From Chlorella sorokiniana (lineage: Eukaryota; Chlorophyta; Trebouxiophyceae; Chlorellales; Chlorellaceae), in contig CP084617.1 of the NCBI GenBank assembly GCA_025917655.1, positions 248,001-312,000 of the forward strand: a stretch of 64,000 nt of DNA, read 5' to 3'. The position numbers were made by a program, and so were the translations under genes. This document shows positions 3,919 to 12,785 of the stretch, piece by piece (the first letter of the stretch is position 1; every line of letters begins with the position of its first letter). The notes below the pieces were generated by a model, which searched no databases, had not been told where the DNA came from, and saw nothing but the letters and a program-made list of their open reading frames with translations.

Positions 3919-4754
3919 CGGTGCTACAATTCGAAATGTGCGAGGTTGGATCGCGGCTACGAAAGCAATGCCAGCCCTGCAGAAGGTGAGGGCTCATGCC
4001 AGCACACACACCAAGCTAGTGGCAGCCAGGGCGCCTAGGAGGGCTCCACGCCAGGGCATTGCAGCTGCCAGATGGTGCACTTCAGATTTGGGCCGATGCT
4101 GAGCCCGGACGACCAGGCACCGAGGCCTGCTGGCCCCTCCATGCTGGCCGGATAGCCTCTGCCCCGGCAGGCGCAGAGCCTGTCCCTGCATCGAGGCAAG
4201 CATTGTTGTACAATGGCAAGGTTGCGGGCCAGCTGCCTCGCCCTCATCTCGGATGAGAGGGCTTGCAAGCAAAGCAGACGCAGCATGCTTGCGGGGCTCG
4301 GAGACAGTGCTTGATTGGGGTGCGCCTGCCTAGACCGAAGATTTCGATCCAAGTCCCTTCAACCCCTCAGCCTGTGGGGCCGACACCCCAAGTTTCGCTC
4401 CCGCTCGTCTGCCGGCCGCTCCTGCGCTGCACATCGTGCGATCGCTCCGTCTCAGGCAAGTCGTTCAGCCATCAGGCATTCCAGCTCTTGCTGCTTTGTT
4501 CTACGCTCAAGTACCGTCGGTCACCGTGCAAGCGGGCGCCCAGCCACCCCAAGCAGACGTGAAGTTGCACGAAACTGTTGAAGGGTGTCGTTCGGAGCGT
4601 GCGTCGACGCCAAACCGGCCTCCTGCCGCTCAGACCAAGTCTGCAGCTGGCCGCCCAAGCGCTGTGCCAGCGCTCGAAAAGGTGTCCGCGCTGCCCTGCG
4701 TGCAGTTTGCATGGCTGGCCTAAACCGGCCTATGAATTGAGTTTTTGGGACGCA
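3919..4754. other. Intergenic, divergent promoter region
   Basis: About 0.8 kb separates the minus-strand coiled-coil gene from the start codon of the plus-strand deacetylase gene. Open frames here show no recognisable protein and no convincing splice pattern. It presumably carries both promoters and 5' UTRs; I see no clear TATA box. Confidence 0.5.
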
Positions 4755-7700
4755 ATGGACGATACAGGGCCGAATGCAGGGCCAGGGGTGAGTCAGGACA
4801 TCTTGCGACGCCTGCGGCACCACACACTTATGAGCGGCAACCGCCTCCCTGCCTGTGTCGACCACTGCGCGTTGTCCCCTGCATGCATTGAATGTTGCTT
4901 GCAGCTCACACTTGACACCCATTCCTGCCACCGGCTGCAGCGCAAGAACCGGGTCGCATACTTTTACGATCCCGACATCGGCCAGTTCTACTATGGTGGG
5001 TGTGACCTGGTGTGCTCTTGCTGCCTGCCCGCCTGCCTGCCCGCCCGCAGGCTGCTGTGTGCTGGTCGCTTGGGGCGTGCAGCGCTGCGCTGCAGCGGGT
5101 CGGCGCAGCGCACGTCAGCTGCAGTCCAGACCGCCCGCCTCCCGCGTGCCCGCTGCAGGCCAGGGGCACCCCATGAAGCCGCACCGCGTGCGCATGGCGC
5201 ACAGCCTGGTGCTGCACTACGGGCTGTACAGCAAGCTGGAAGGGGTGCGTGCTGCTGGCTGGGGGCCGCCGGCTGGGCGCTACCAGCCGGGTGCCGCCGG
5301 CCGGGTGCTGGCCCCAGCTCCGACAAATGTATGCAGTGCGCTCGCAGGCCTTGAATCGTGTCCAGCCCCTCCTCCCTTTGTGAGCGCTGCCTGCTGCCCG
5401 CCAGCTGCAGCCCCGTGGCCCCAACACCGCCACGTGTACCGCTGTGATGCCATGCAGTACTACACGCCGACGCGGGCCACCGCCGAGGACATGGCGGCCT
5501 TCCATGCGGAGGACTATGTGGAGTTCCTGCAGAACGTGTCCCCGGACAACGCGGTGGGTAGACCCGTTGTGGGACAGGTGTTGGCCGGGAGAGCATGGCA
5601 GCGCCGCACAGCAAGGCAGCAGCACGGTTGCAGACACGCACGAGGCAGATGCGCGGCATCGGTGCGGCCGAGGGTGGATGGGAACGCAAGGAGCTGCGTG
5701 CTGGGTTACCCGCTCGCTAGAATGCATCGCGGCACCGGCAGAATGCAGCTTGCGGTCAAGAGTGCGAGGGCCATGGCGGCTGACATGGCGCTGATGTCAT
5801 GCAGCTGTGTGGGCTGTACCTTACCGCTCGGTTTGATGCATTTCCGCCTCTTGCTCACCGTCCGTGCAGTCTCAGTTCAACCGAGAGCTTCGGGAGTATA
5901 ACATGTATGAAGATTGCCCCGTGTTTGATGGCCTCTACCAGTACTGCCAGGTGGGAGCTAAATCGTACTGCGGTACTGCAGCCGGATGCCCGTTGCCCCG
6001 CCGCTATGCCGCCCGTGGTTGCCTGCTTCCCTGCTTTGCGTGGGCCTCCACCTCGGCGAGCCGGCGGCGCATCTCAGCTCTTCTCTGTCCTTTCGCTGGC
6101 GGCTGGGCCGCAGATTTCTGCGGGGGGTCGCTGGGTGCCGCCGTCAAGCTCAACTACCAGACCGCCGACATCGCCATCAACTGGGCTGGAGGGCTGCACC
6201 ACGCCAAGCGCTCAGAGGCCTCAGGTGGGTGGGCTGCCTTGGGAGGTTGTGCTTTTGTGTGTTTGTGTGAGTGTACTTGTGTGTGTGCGGTTGTGTGTGT
6301 CCCACGGTGCCAGGCCTGCTGTCGAAGTTGCAGCTGGTCCTGCCGGCAGCTCATCCGTGGCTTGCACCCCCTCCAGCTGCGGCTGCATACCGTAGTTCTT
6401 CCATTTCGTACCGCAGGCTTCTGCTACGTCAACGACATCGTGCTGGCCATCCTGGAGCTGCTCAAGTACCACCAGCGGTGCGTCCAGCTTCCGCCCAGCT
6501 TCTTGCCAGCGTTGACCTGCTGCCCACCGCCCTGACTGCAGCTGTCCCGGGCCCCGGCCCACCCACACATGCAACCCTCCCGCAGCCCCTTTTCTCCTCT
6601 GCCCTCCTCCCAAGCCCCTTCCATCCTACCGTGCCATAATTCACTCTGCCAGTGCCGTCTTTCCTCGTTTCCCCACTCCTTCCAGAGTGCTCTATCTGGA
6701 CATCGACGTGCACCATGGCGACGGCGTGGAGGAGGCTTTCCTCACAACCGACCGAGTGATGACGGTCAGGTGGGCCGGCCGACCAGCCCGGCCTCCAGCT
6801 TGCGCTGGGGGCAGCAACGGCCGGCAGGGAGGGGCTGGACTGAATGGGCAGGTGGCTGGCAGGCTGGGCGTGCAGCAGCAGGGGACTGACTGCATCGCTG
6901 GGCAGCGCGTGGGGGTCCTGGCTGGCGCCAGCCGCTTCCCCAACAACTAGCCGTTGCTTCGCAGCCGCGACCACCCCCCACCCTGCTCGCCGCCCTCTGC
7001 CCGACTATCGCTGCCGCGCCGCTTGCCTGCCGCACCGCAGCTTCCACAAGTTTGATGGCAGCTACTTCCCGGCACTGGCGACGTCGGCAACATGGGCCAC
7101 GGTGTGTGCTGCTGCGTCCTCGGGCTCATGCTGCCAAGCCATAGGCACATGTGGTGACTCAGCGCTGGGTTCCACAGTGTGCACGCTGCGTGCCTGTGCA
7201 TGGGACACTCCCATGCTTCAACCCTGTTGGCTGTGCAGGCCAGGGACGTGGCTACTCTCTGAACGTGCCGCTCAAAGACGGCATCACAGGTGTGCCTCGC
7301 TGCCGCGCATTCTCAAGCCGCCGCTCCCGGGTTCTCACGCTGCCACACCAGGCAGCCGCGCCCTGACCGCGCCCCCTTCCTGCCAGCCTCGTCTTCCGGC
7401 TGACAGTCACCCAGCGCCGCTGCTCGCGGGCCGACGCTCATGTTCCGTCTGCAACCCATGCTTCCTCCCACTCCCGCCATGCCCTCGCTCCTGCAGACGA
7501 GGCCTACCACTCCCTGTTCAAGCCCATCATGAGCAAAATCATGGAGGTCTACCGGCCAGAAGCCATCGTGCTGCAGTGCGGTGGGTTCCGTTTCGGAGCG
7601 GCGGCGGTAGCGCACACCCGGCACCGTGCATGGCGACCGCTCTGCCAGGCTGCCCTGCTTCACCTCGCAGCTCGAGGGGGCGTGCTTGACTGCGCATTGC

Positions 7701-10187
7701 GTCAGCCTTGCCTCAGCCCTGGAAGCCGCCCAGAAGCTGCCCGGCTCATCGATGCAGGCACCGACTCGCTGGCGGGCGACCGCCTGGGCGTGTTCAACCT
7801 TTCCTCTGGCGGCCACGCCGCCGCCGTGTCCTTCATGAAGGGCTTTGGCCTGCCGCTGATGCTGCTGGGCGGCGGCGGCTACAAGATCATCAACGTAGCG
7901 CGCTGCTGGGCCCTGGAAACCGGTGCGGCGGCAGGCGGATTCCCCTGGGGGGCCGCGCTCCTCCGCATGCGTTGCCGCAGCTTGCTTGCAGTGCATGTGC
8001 GGGATACGCCGCGTGGCCAGGCAGTGGCACGACCTCCCCTGCTGTGCTGCCTGGTGTCCAGGACCGTATCGCCGGTACCGCCGCAGGCCTGGCGGTGGGG
8101 GCCGACATGGAGGAGCAGCTGCCGCCCAACGAGTACTACGACTACTATGGGCCAGGTACCCTTGCAGTACCAACATTGCAGTACCATTGTACGGTACCGA
8201 TCCAGAATGCTCAACCCTCAGTCTGGCCTCCTCACCTTTCCGTTCTGCTCTCACTCTGCTGCTGCAGTCGGCTACAAGCTGACGGTGCAGCCCAAGCTTG
8301 GCTTTGACGATCGCAACTCCTCCGAATATCTGGACGGGCTCAGGTATGCGCTGCGTGCCTGCACGTGCCTGCTTGTCTGATTGCAGTGCCTGCCAGGCCG
8401 CCGCCTCCACCCTGCCAGCCGCCCAGCCCCCGCTGCCACCTCTGGCGCCCCCCCCGCCGCAGGAGCACGATCCTGCAGCGGCTGTCGCAGCTGCAGGGCC
8501 CGCCCTCGGTGGGCTTCCACGAGCGGGCGCCAGATGGCATGGAGCTGGACGACATGCAGGTGCCTGGTGGTGGTGGGGGATAAAGGACGTATCGCCTGAT
8601 TGCTTGCCTGCATCAGGCCCCCCGCTGCTCCTCTTCCCGTGCGCTTCTGACAGCTGCCACTGCCCAGCTCCGGGCTAAAGGGTCACAATGGCGGCACCGC
8701 TGCACCGAACTTGGCCCTCCTCCTGTCCGCCCGCCCTCCGTCGGCACGCCTCAACCGCCCCCTCGCTCCCTTCCCCTGCTCACCGACACGCAACGGCACG
8801 CGCACCTCTCCCCTTTCTCGCGTGCAGCAGCTGAGCATGCAGGATGCAGAGGGGCGCTCCCTGGCCGGCTGTGGGACGGTGAGCTGGACCCGGAGGGGGA
8901 CCAGGAGGAGGAGGGCAGCCCGCGGCGGCGGCCCGACATCAGCAGCAGGTGGGCGTCTGTGGAAATCCCTGTTGGCGCGTGTGTGTGGGTGTTTGTGTGG
9001 GTGGGTGATGGGCCATGCAGTGTGGCTGAGGCAGTGCGGATGTTGAGTGTTGAGGCGGGAGGCCCCCAGGGCGTGAACGGGAGCCCACCCGCCCCGCCAG
9101 CACCCCACAGGCCGGGCCGCCGCTCTGCCGCCGCCTGCAGGGACCCGCGGCTGCAGAACCCTCGCTCACCCAGCATGCTCCGCCCCGCTCGCCCCCGCGG
9201 CTGGCCGACGAAGCCAGCGGCGGCGCGGCGCCCGTCGATAGCTCGCCCCAGCCGCAGCACACGCAGCACACGCAGGGCACCCAGGCCACTCAGGCCACTC
9301 GCAGCAGTCTGGGCACTCAGGGCACTGCAGGTGGGCCAGCGACAAACCGATCCCGTGCCCCCTGCCCTTCCGCTGTGCCGCGTCGGAGGCTTGCTTCGGG
9401 CCTGCTGCTCCAAAGCAGTTTTTGTTTGGTGGAGGGGGCGGGGGCAGCGTCGCTGCAGACACTCGTCGCGCCGTGAAGCTGTTGCTGCTGCCCAGCGATG
9501 ACATTGCTGCTTGCTCGCTCAGCACCGCTCACTCCAGTATGCTCTGAGTATGCCCTGTCCCCCGGCCTGGCCACCCCTCCCACCCCCGCAGGCGGCAGCG
9601 GCGGCAAGGTGTGCTCCAACTGCGGCACCACGACCACGAGCAGCTGGCGGCGGGACCCCGACACGCACGCTGTGCTGTGCTCCGCCTGCGGGCAGTACAA
9701 GAAGCTGAACGGCACCAACCGGCCCGTGCGCCTGCGGCAGCGGGCGTCGGTGACGGGCGACGAGCCGCGGCTGTGCACCCACTGCGGCACCACAGACACG
9801 TCCAACTGGCGGCGGCACCCGTCACGCGCAAGATGCTCTGCAACGCGTGCGGTGCGTCTCTTTTGCCTTCTTTGTTTATGGTTCTATTTTCTATGGGGGG
9901 GAAGGGAACGGGGCCCAGAACCATGGCCGATCCATGCATGCTGGCATGTGCCGCTGCCGGAGCCACCCCTGGCGCTGGAGGAAACTACCCCTGCCGCTGC
10001 CTGATGCAGCGCCTGCGCCGCCAATAATGCAACTCCCCTTTCCTCTCCTCCTTGCGCAGGCAACTACATGAAGCTCCACGGCGAGATGCGGCCGCTGGGG
10101 GCTGGCAGCAGCGGCCCCGGCGGCTCCTCACTGCGCAGAGGCAGCGAGGAGCCTACGGCGGGCGGCGGCGCGGTCTCACAGCGGTGA
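4755..10187 (+). CDS. Class I histone deacetylase fused to two GATA zinc fingers
   Basis: Exon 1 (4755-4787) begins [11 protein letters not shown] and joins in phase to 4941-4995 ([19 protein letters not shown]). Later exons give the whole RPD3/HDA1-superfamily class I core: [50 protein letters not shown] (zinc-binding Asp and His), [24 protein letters not shown] (third zinc ligand) and [16 protein letters not shown] with the catalytic Tyr. It should remove acetyl groups from histone lysines in the nucleus. After ELDDMQ, acidic and Gln/Thr/Pro-rich exons (about 8826-8950 and 9103-9329) lead in phase into an exon from about 9593 with finger 1 (CSNCG...CSACG, 18-residue spacing) and finger 2 (CTHCG...CNACG), then a last exon at about 10061-10187. 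The phases support one fused protein. Single missing bases seem to lie in the G run near 6125, at the CCCGG near 7072, and inside finger 2 near 9828. Exon boundaries around 8560-8950 are uncertain. Confidence 0.88.
9593..10187 (+). other. Paired GATA zinc-finger region of the deacetylase gene
   Basis: Two C-x2-C-x18-C-x2-C fingers. Finger 1 reads [16 protein letters not shown] then VLCSACG. Finger 2 reads [16 protein letters not shown] then, after a one-base frame offset, [10 protein letters not shown], and continues across an intron into [13 protein letters not shown]. The basic tail after the last Cys pair is typical of GATA DNA-binding fingers. The exon starts in the phase left by the upstream Gln/Thr-rich exon, so it belongs to the deacetylase transcript rather than to a separate gene, unless an unseen promoter lies between them. 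Confidence 0.75.
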
Positions 10188-12785
10188 TGTGTGCGTGCTG
10201 CCGCCTGCGCCTGCATGGGGAACCATAGACACCTGTGTGTAAGAACTGCCCCCAGCTTCCCAGTGAAAAGCCGGTGAGCTTGGGCGCATGAGGAAGCTGT
10301 CAACCGTGGCCAGCTGCACACATGACTGCCAACCTGACTGCCAACTGTTCAAGGGGTTTTCACGGCTGGCAGTACTGCCAACCATGCGGCTGCCCGAACA
10401 CCTGCGCCAGGGACCCGTCCGCATGGGTTCGACTTGCTTCTGCCAGGAGTAGGTTTGGGGGATCTGTGGTCAGGGGGCAGGGCGGGCGTTGGATGTTGTT
10501 CGGGGCCACTCCTGCCAACTGCCCCTGCTGAGGTGGCCTCTCTTTGACATGCACAGTTCTCCGCGCATGCCCTGACCAAATAACTTATCCTGCCATCCAT
10601 CATAACCTTGCATACGCGTCAGGACGGAGGAGTGCTGCCCATTGATGGCTGAACTGCCCCGGGTGCAGTCACGCTCTTTCACTTCTGTGGACTAGGATAT
10701 TTGCACTTCACGGCACATTGGGGGTTAGTTGCGCGCGCATGACAGCGAACAAGCCACAGGAGGAACATCAGGATACTCAAGAGTAAGATTGCGAGTTGAA
10801 GAGCTCGCCATTCCCGCAACCAGACATCCCCATGACAGTGATCGGATCCCATATCGACACACTCGGCCCAGCCCCAGCCAGCAACAGTTGCGGGGGCCTG
10901 CCTTGGCCACCGTCCCCGCAGCGTGCCCGGCGGCCGGGGTGCTCCAGCCGCATCCTGCAGCGCCGGCAGCAGCCTCTCTAATCGACGATTTCTGCCTGGC
11001 GCTGGCCGTCCCGGGTGTTGCACTTTGGCTCACGGAGACTGTAAGTCGCCGCTGCCACCGCACGCCCGGCAGCTGCCTGTGTTCCCACCACATGACTCAT
11101 CGACGGCATGGCATGAATTCATTCTGGCGAGGTTCGAACCTCGCCAGATACACGTGTTTGTTGGTTGCTAATGCCTTCGCTCCTTTTCTTTATTAAATCC
11201 CCTCCCGCCCTCCCCGCCCACTACCTCCACCCCCTCCCCCTCACACACACACACACACACACAAAATGTAAATATAAGAAAACCAACGCAAACCACCCAC
11301 CCATGCAGGGCTCTGCCATCCCCCTGCCGCTGGGCACGCTCCTGGCGGCAGCCTCCCTGGGCAGCTGGCAGCTCGTGACGCGGCTTGCCCGCGCCCGCCA
11401 CTCGCTGTGCTGGGCTGTTTTCGGGCTCACAATGCTGGCCCGCCACTGCCTGGCCTGGGCGCATGCGGCGCAGGACCCTCTCCGTCTGTCTGCCGCCTGT
11501 GCTTTTTCCTCAGGTTGGGCGCTGCCAGCAGCCGCATCATGGAGGTTGCCCCTGCAGGACAGGCGCAAACACCTCCGTTGTTGTGCCGCAAGCCAGCCAT
11601 GAACCGAATCGCCGCTGCAGCTGCGAGCTAGCCCGGCAGCTGCAGGCTACCGACGACAGCCTGCTCGCCCCCGGCCTCTGCAGCCTCGTATACATGCGGC
11701 GTGGCCGCCGTCGCGCTGCTGGTTGCCTTGGCGGCACAGCGGCTGGGCGCGCTTGTGGAGCTTGGCGCACGACGGGCAGGCCTCTTGCAATGCCCAGAGC
11801 AGCCAGGTGGGTGCTTCGCTGCGGTCCACGGACAGCAGGCGGAAGGCGCCCGCGCAGCAGCCCGTGCAGTGCCGCCGTGTGTGCTCGACTGCGCCAGTGG
11901 CCCCGCTTCTTGCAGAGTGTGCTGCCACCTGTGCCGCGTGCCAGGCGCTGGGGCAAACGGGGCTGCCGCCGCTGCTGAAAGCTGAGACGCAGCAGGCAGC
12001 AGTGGCCAGCAACCATGGAGGAGCCGTGGCAGAGCTTGAGGAGGACAGCAAGGCGCCCAAATGCTGCCAGCTGGTCTAACCGCGAGCGCCCACAGCATAG
12101 GCAGGCAACCAAAGCCCCTTCCGTCGTGCGCTCATAAGCATGCTTAACGAATCATGGCGGAGCCAGAATCCACCCTCCAACGGGACGCAGCTTGCGCCTC
12201 GCGCTGCCCGCTGTCCCCTCTTCCTGATGCACGCTACGACTGCCGGAGAGCACGCCGTATGGCCGCTGAGTGTGTTAAAAGAGGCAAATCACGCGAAGGT
12301 GCGGCAGGGAGAGCGCCCGCGCCGGTCCGCCAGCCCGGGCGGGCGCCTGCCGCCGCCGCTGCGGGGCCCACGGGATGAATGGAGGCAGGGTGGAGGCACC
12401 GGGCGGCACTGCGAGAGAAGTGGCTGCTGCTGCTGCTGCTGCTGCTGAAAAAAGGGGGCAAACGCATGTGGCAAGCAAACAAGGACGGGGGGGACGTGTG
12501 CAGCGGCGTGACCAAGCCAGGCTGCTACGTAGTGGCTGCTGTGTGCTGTTGGGGGATGAACCCAGGGTTGAGGGCACAGGTAGGGTGGAGGGGCGCCTTT
12601 GGGGGGGCCGAATGCGTGCGTCGAGCGAGCCGGTAGGGCGCTCGCAGCACAACGCACAAGCCCCTTCAAGGCTCCCGCTGCTGCTGAGGCGCTCGCCGTG
12701 GCCGCAGGTTGCCGCCAGGCTGGCCGTGCACGGAACGCTGTGGCAGGCCTGTCGACCCACGGGCGTCGCGCGCGGCGCCGCCGCA
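10188..12785. other. Poorly resolved stretch with a possible small membrane-protein gene
   Basis: No family is recognisable. The best coding hint is on the plus strand. An open frame ends in DDFCLALAVPGVALWLTET at a strong donor (GTAAGT, about 11041) and may join to about 11308, giving PLPLGTLLAAASLGSWQL, a hydrophobic stretch. A pyrimidine-rich acceptor near 11515 could lead to a short C-terminus stopping near 11631. A further plus-strand open frame with several Cys (CRRVCS, ECAATCAACQ) stops near 12079. None of these could be joined with confidence, and the minus strand offers no better reading. A 26-bp perfect palindrome lies at 11123-11148. From 12080 to 12785 I see only downstream flanking DNA of the next minus-strand gene. 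Confidence 0.25.
11123..11148. repeat. 26-bp perfect palindrome centred on TTCGAA
   Basis: The two 13-base halves are exact reverse complements; the core reads GAGGTTCGAACCTC. It lies in the putative intron downstream of the strong donor at 11041. It resembles a tRNA T-arm only superficially, because there is no matching acceptor stem or anticodon arm. Confidence 0.85.

Follow-up and report, generated by a model that had tools for sequence, protein, structure and literature searches.

A class I histone deacetylase probably encoded together with two GATA fingers by one gene of Chlorella sorokiniana

We analysed a stretch of 64,000 nucleotides from Chlorella sorokiniana (contig CP084617.1, positions 248,001 to 312,000 of the forward strand, assembly GCA_025917655.1), which is called here the window and is numbered from its first letter. 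On its + strand it encodes the catalytic domain of a class I histone deacetylase (HDAC) at 4755-8559 and two GATA fingers at 9592-10187. It is probable that the deacetylase and the two fingers are encoded by one gene, and from the anatomy of this gene we infer one mRNA that joins the catalytic domain to the fingers. One gene is favoured because of the ranks of the splice sites between the halves, the GC content by codon position, and a poly(A)-type signal just past the stop codon of the fingers. A deacetylase and a pair of GATA fingers in one gene appears to be an unusual combination. The initial annotation of this stretch had proposed such a fusion: both of its domains stand (PF00850, 5.4e-84; PF00320, 5.7e-23) and are, as sequence matches, far beyond chance, while the joint between them is likely rather than proven.

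The deacetylase and GATA finger domains

The predicted catalytic domain aligned with residues 9-382 of human HDAC1 at 2.7e-140 in a search against PDB sequences, and the deacetylase translation covers positions 1-294 of the 298 in the PF00850 profile. The domain is full-length and nearest to HDAC1/2/3 and Rpd3; the top 20 of the 60 PDB rows are HDAC1, HDAC2, clr6, RPD3, and HDAC3, with HDAC8 much lower. GLHHAK, DIDxHHGDG, DSLxGDRLG, and GGGGY, which are active-site motifs, were sought as the four class I motifs and all four were found. At about 7885-7900 the GGGGYTIRN of HDAC1 is replaced by GGGGYKIIN, and the residue aligned to R306 of HDAC1, which we take to be the Arg of the inositol-phosphate site, is Ile instead of Arg. 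This Arg is dispensable for class I membership; HDAC8 is without it. The exon model was built by hand, and its exons were placed on the + strand by their fit to HDAC1, namely, exons 1-5 (4755-4787, 4941-4995, 5159-5244, 5459-5553, and 5870-5950), exons 6-10 (6114-6224, 6417-6477, 6686-6769, 7041-7101, and 7239-7289, with frame breaks in exons 6 and 9), and exons 11-15 (7497-7580, 7758-7922, 8087-8155, 8268-8343, and 8463-8559). The introns of the model start with GT and end with AG. The starts of exons 4, 5, and 8 were chosen to keep the length and frame of HDAC1, and the acceptor of exon 4, which scores poorly (-15.3), was picked because the HDAC1 length results. Among viral contigs the catalytic stretch had one match, at 268-465 of IMGVR_UViG_3300025520_000116, where a stretch is 59% identical to the deacetylase core.

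The two fingers start at 9612 and the stop codon is at 10185-10187. Exon 18 (9592..9851, + strand), placed by PF00320, GC by codon position, and splice ranks, encodes all of finger 1 and the beginning of finger 2, whereas exon 19 (10060..10187, + strand), placed by its translation and by alignment to GATA-1, encodes the end of finger 2, a basic Gly/Ser tail, and the stop. With X placed at the frame breaks, the PF00320 profile matched in two stretches at 5.7e-23 and 80.7 bits (cut-off 26.8), and the CX2CX17-20CX2C pattern is present; the unedited letters give a complete finger 1 only. The best solved relative is the double finger of GATA-1, with an alignment (8.9e-23) that extends over both fingers and in which X fills the break of finger 2. 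Third-position GC in exon 18 ahead of that break is 0.97-0.98. In a Pfam scan of the fused translation, PF00850 and PF00320 were the sole families above their cut-offs, and neither ELM2 nor SANT was found. In both fingers the loop is 18 residues long, and the Leu of TLWRR and of ACGLY in GATA-1 are replaced by Ser/Asn and Gln/Asn in the two fingers. These positions, polar in both fingers, are presumably the hydrophobic base contacts of GATA-1, and therefore the DNA sequence preferred by the predicted fingers may differ or be weak. For the divergent finger of MTA1, it has been reported that DNA binding is likely kept but with another sequence or no specificity (PMC4244562; this and the other papers marked here as excerpts are cited from part of their text).

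The joint between the halves: one gene or two

Two exons on the + strand link the halves. Exon 16 (8828..8948), placed by GC by codon position and splice ranks, encodes an acidic post-catalytic segment and contains an internal frame switch. Exon 17 (9101..9330, with alternative starts at 9111 or 9141) encodes a Gln/Thr-rich linker and was placed by its fused frame, which is open and without Met. The acidic frame of exon 16 ends in phase 2 and can be joined to exons 17 and 18 at GT/AG sites with matching phases, and it then stays open into finger 1. Splice sites were ranked among all 73 GT and 98 AG in 8400-10200, with matrices made from 13 catalytic introns and the intron between exons 18 and 19. 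Donors 8560, 8949, and 9331 ranked 5, 3, and 2 of the 73 GT, and among the 98 AG acceptor 9591 ranked 4 and acceptor 8827 ranked 13. Third-position GC forms coding islands at exons 15-18 and is flat between them, notably at 9340-9591; within exon 17 the fused frame has values of 0.85-0.95 at 9161-9280, but 9101-9160 favours another class, and this measure is ambiguous over the final 50 bases.

TGTAA, which serves green algae as a poly(A)-type signal, is at 10238..10242 on the + strand, 51 nucleotides 3' of the GATA stop, and it occurs nowhere else on this strand in 4000-11000. In C. variabilis, 193 out of 300 3' ends have this signal (PMC3946568, excerpt). By the shuffled rate, about 0.008 TGTAA would be expected by chance in the 55 nucleotides after the stop. 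Of 17 control loci, 9 have TGTAA no more than 500 nucleotides past the conserved end, against about 2 expected; the background rate was 77 in 278,994 bases, with mixed orientations and overlapping loci counted twice.

Several observations weigh against one gene. In the assembled letters the phase of catalytic exon 15 does not fit that of the acidic segment, and joining exon 15 to the acidic frame requires one lost base. It had been argued in the initial annotation that exon phases carry the frame from the acidic post-catalytic segment through the linker into the two fingers. The phases do match from acidic exon 16 through exon 17 and exon 18 into finger 1 but not from exon 15 to the acidic segment, and continuity of the frame as assembled is lost in exons 6, 9, 16, and 18 by one-base losses. 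Since the frame is discontinuous in the assembled letters, the exon-phase argument cannot carry the claim of a fusion. The bias, measured as GC by codon position, switches frame inside exon 16: at 8828-8870 the best frame (0.86) continues exon 15 and at 8870-8948 the best (0.96) is the acidic frame. Donors 8567, 8570, and 8573 were considered as a cure for the mismatch between exons 15 and 16 and are unlikely because exon 16 shows the bias of the exon 15 frame over its initial 43 bases, although donor 8573 comes directly after donor 8560 in rank. Also on the unfavourable side, the acceptors of exon 17 are weak (9100 ranks 27 and 9110 ranks 60 of the 98 AG; 9140 scores 3.5), strong sites are left unused (donor 9609, rank 4 of the 73 GT; acceptor 9458, rank 2 of the 98 AG), and the codon score is 0.00 in the acidic frame of exon 16 and -0.25 in the fused frame of exon 17, a frame that scores lowest of all three over the first half of that exon. 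The absence of TGTAA within the gene is weak evidence for one gene, with about 0.8 expected in 5.5 kb. Finally, no algal homologue was found in the viral, genome-contig, or plasmid collections. A search of exons 15-16 against PDB for a plant-type HDAC tail gave no match up to E 10.

The strongest alternative is that there are two neighbouring genes. The deacetylase gene would end with exon 15 or 16 or beyond it, and a double-finger GATA gene would start on its own shortly before exon 18, as at ATG 9498, or further up. The mismatch between exons 15 and 16 sits where the boundary between the genes would be, a reading that goes past donor 8560 hits the stop codon at 8581, finger 1 can be read in frame from ATG 9498 without a stop, and free-standing double-finger GATA genes occur elsewhere in the genome. 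Nevertheless, we consider two genes rather improbable. The stretch 9477-9591, through which a gene starting at ATG 9498 would have to be read, has no codon-position bias (0.59/0.74/0.63) and an intron-like codon score (-0.46), and it ends in a strong acceptor. The acidic frame is free of stops from 8584 to 9498, and the ATGs from 8949 to the end of exon 17 were surveyed for a start further up. ATG 9015, in the fused class, runs into a stop at 9027 and ATG 9008, in the third class, into a stop at 9044, while ATGs 9040 and 9175 come into frame only with a lost base in exon 17. In addition, a deacetylase gene ending before the fingers would have no TGTAA, as there is none on the + strand in 4000-10237, yet about a third of genes are without this signal (PMC3946568, excerpt).

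Frame breaks and the quality of the assembly

In four exons the gene is short of one base at a G/C run, namely, in exon 6 (~6120), exon 9 (~7068), exon 16 (~8850-8870), and exon 18 (~9819). These breaks were located against HDAC1 and the GATA pattern, and the one in exon 18 is inside finger 2. Exon 17 may hold a fifth, so that there are four or five breaks within about 1.9 kb of coding sequence. By eye, a one-base break was seen in a conserved stretch at 3 of 10 control loci for light-harvesting proteins and cyclophilins. Among the other class I deacetylase genes of this genome, the one at C1:4909 (L171) is broken three times at G/C runs: two of the breaks are of one base, and the third calls for two added bases (or one fewer). 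In the gene at C8:2455 (L170) no clear frame break was seen. Because similar breaks are present in the control loci and in L171, the most likely explanation is that bases were dropped in the assembly and that the gene is not dead.

That the gene is a decaying pseudogene, with four or five true mutations in about 1.9 kb, is very improbable: each of the four clear breaks is the loss of one base at a G/C run, and similar ones are present in genes for light-harvesting proteins and cyclophilins and in a sister HDAC gene. Moreover, no motif or zinc ligand has been lost, and third-position GC reaches 0.91 in exon 12, 0.94 in exon 15, and 0.98 in the 5' half of exon 18. Bases are missing at G/C runs in conserved genes across the genome, so that frame breaks in this assembly are poor evidence for a pseudogene.

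Relatives, known systems, and proposed function

The scans of the alga's own genome covered 38.8 Mb in 15 contigs, in which the window is C12:248001-312000. A photosystem I antenna protein of this genome agrees with chain 7 of PDB 6zzx, a structure from Chlorella ohadii, at 124 of 132 aligned positions, in keeping with a Chlorella-like trebouxiophyte. The deacetylases L170 and L171 were assigned to class I by visual inspection and by a tblastn search with HDAC1 as query. Neither had an adjoining GATA match in the genome scan, nor was CX2C..CX2C found in the gene-strand frames of 5.8 and 5.3 kb around them; this pattern misses finger 2 of the present gene, and a frame break could likewise hide a finger near L170 or L171. 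Fingers thus accompany 1 of at least 3 class I HDAC genes. The DNA of exons 17-18 is single-copy in the genome.

With a query that comprised finger 1 and ran to the middle of finger 2, 12 of the 21 matches in the genome were on C6:2209244-2236513, at almost full query length and 37-43% identity, forming a tandem array. It is therefore probably from this double-finger GATA family, amplified elsewhere in the genome, that the fingers come. Of five array frames that were read, RDPRLQ precedes the fingers in three, RDPRLK in one, and neither in one. Exon 17 also encodes RDPRLQ (at 9139); for its frame to be used, a further base would have to be missing and the acceptor would have to be 9110 or 9140. 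Because this motif is common to exon 17 and the array frames, it suggests that part of the linker, along with the fingers, derived from the C6 family; the tie is one short motif that was noticed after the fact. The N-terminal stretch of the C6 proteins had 28 matches in the genome up to E 10, the present locus not among them, and one C6 array protein had no Pfam family at E 0.01. In C6:2207515-2241654 the double-finger GATA-like array contains equal-score pairs about 5.57 kb apart, which suggests a recent block duplication.

Elsewhere, a GATA finger at C1:3318555-3318662 (L005, 1501-~2990) lies in an open frame of 568 residues that runs into a SET domain. This finger and finger 2 of the deacetylase gene have TSNWRRHP in common. 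The SET domain scored 21.0 bits in the single frame (cut-off 22.4) and 6.9e-16 with the next piece joined by X, and its best structures are SETD2 (1.4e-21). It is a possible second candidate for a fusion of GATA fingers to a chromatin enzyme. The window had no Rfam or tRNA match, and an NCBIfam search was empty.

Outside this genome, viral contigs and plasmids were searched with the fingers, and viral and genome contigs with two catalytic stretches, the genome contigs with these stretches only; no algal locus was found. The best 80 of the 157 relatives of the catalytic core in genome contigs all have bacterial titles; they were not scanned for GATA. No algal fusion of this kind was found in the open-access subset of the literature, and text searches did not find 'histone' in a plant GATA survey (PMC11608367) or 'GATA' in a SET survey (PMC5725981) and a class IV HDAC paper (PMC13325672). 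Such a fusion may already be annotated in algal protein databases, which lay beyond the collections searched.

The tails of HDAC1/2 and Rpd3 are not known to carry a DNA-binding domain. A survey describes these tails in the same way (PMC2993927, excerpt). The algal protein has in common with these enzymes the whole catalytic domain and the acidic segment, but where they end in such a tail it has two predicted GATA fingers. Vertebrate GATA-1/3/4 likewise have two fingers at near-equal spacing; they differ in having 17-residue loops, the Leu in TLWRR and ACGLY, and no enzyme attached. Target choice of class I deacetylases is thought to come from partner proteins, among which Ash1 of yeast is GATA-like. 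In NuRD a class I HDAC works with the GATA-type finger proteins MTA1 and GATAD2 (PMC4244562, excerpt), and in yeast Rpd3L with the DNA-binding factors Ume6 and Ash1 (PMC10224958, excerpt). In both complexes the deacetylase and the finger proteins are separate subunits, whereas in the alga they are predicted to be one chain, and this chain differs from an MTA-type GATA corepressor, which has ELM2 and SANT beside its GATA finger. The GATA protein white collar 1 of Sordaria is reported to gain a putative HDAC domain by stop-loss RNA editing (PMC6794485, excerpt), but that is a weak class IIa match (7.3e-4) in a 131-residue extension and not a full class I domain.

We propose that the protein would be a class I deacetylase with an acidic tail and a low-complexity linker followed by two C-terminal GATA-type fingers. 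The fingers would hold the enzyme on DNA or nucleosomes, and the tethered enzyme would deacetylate histones locally and bring about local repression without a separate targeting subunit. Catalysis and nucleic-acid binding are attributed from knowledge of the two families. Such self-targeted deacetylation is the likely mechanism, and it is plausible, as had been suggested, that the fingers tether the enzyme directly to DNA; both targeting by the fingers and a lower dependence on ELM2-SANT partners are conjectural. More broadly, and tentatively, GATA fingers may be a plug-in targeting module for chromatin enzymes in the Chlorella-like lineage, with a pair of them joined to a class I deacetylase and another finger to a SETD2-type histone methyltransferase while double-finger genes were amplified in tandem, and the deacetylase, directed by its own fingers and without an Arg equivalent to R306, would perhaps be less bound to ELM2-SANT and inositol-phosphate partners. 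If the proposal is true, a single chain takes on in this alga the work that NuRD and Rpd3L divide among several subunits, and it would be possible to test directly whether a DNA-binding module alone directs a class I deacetylase.

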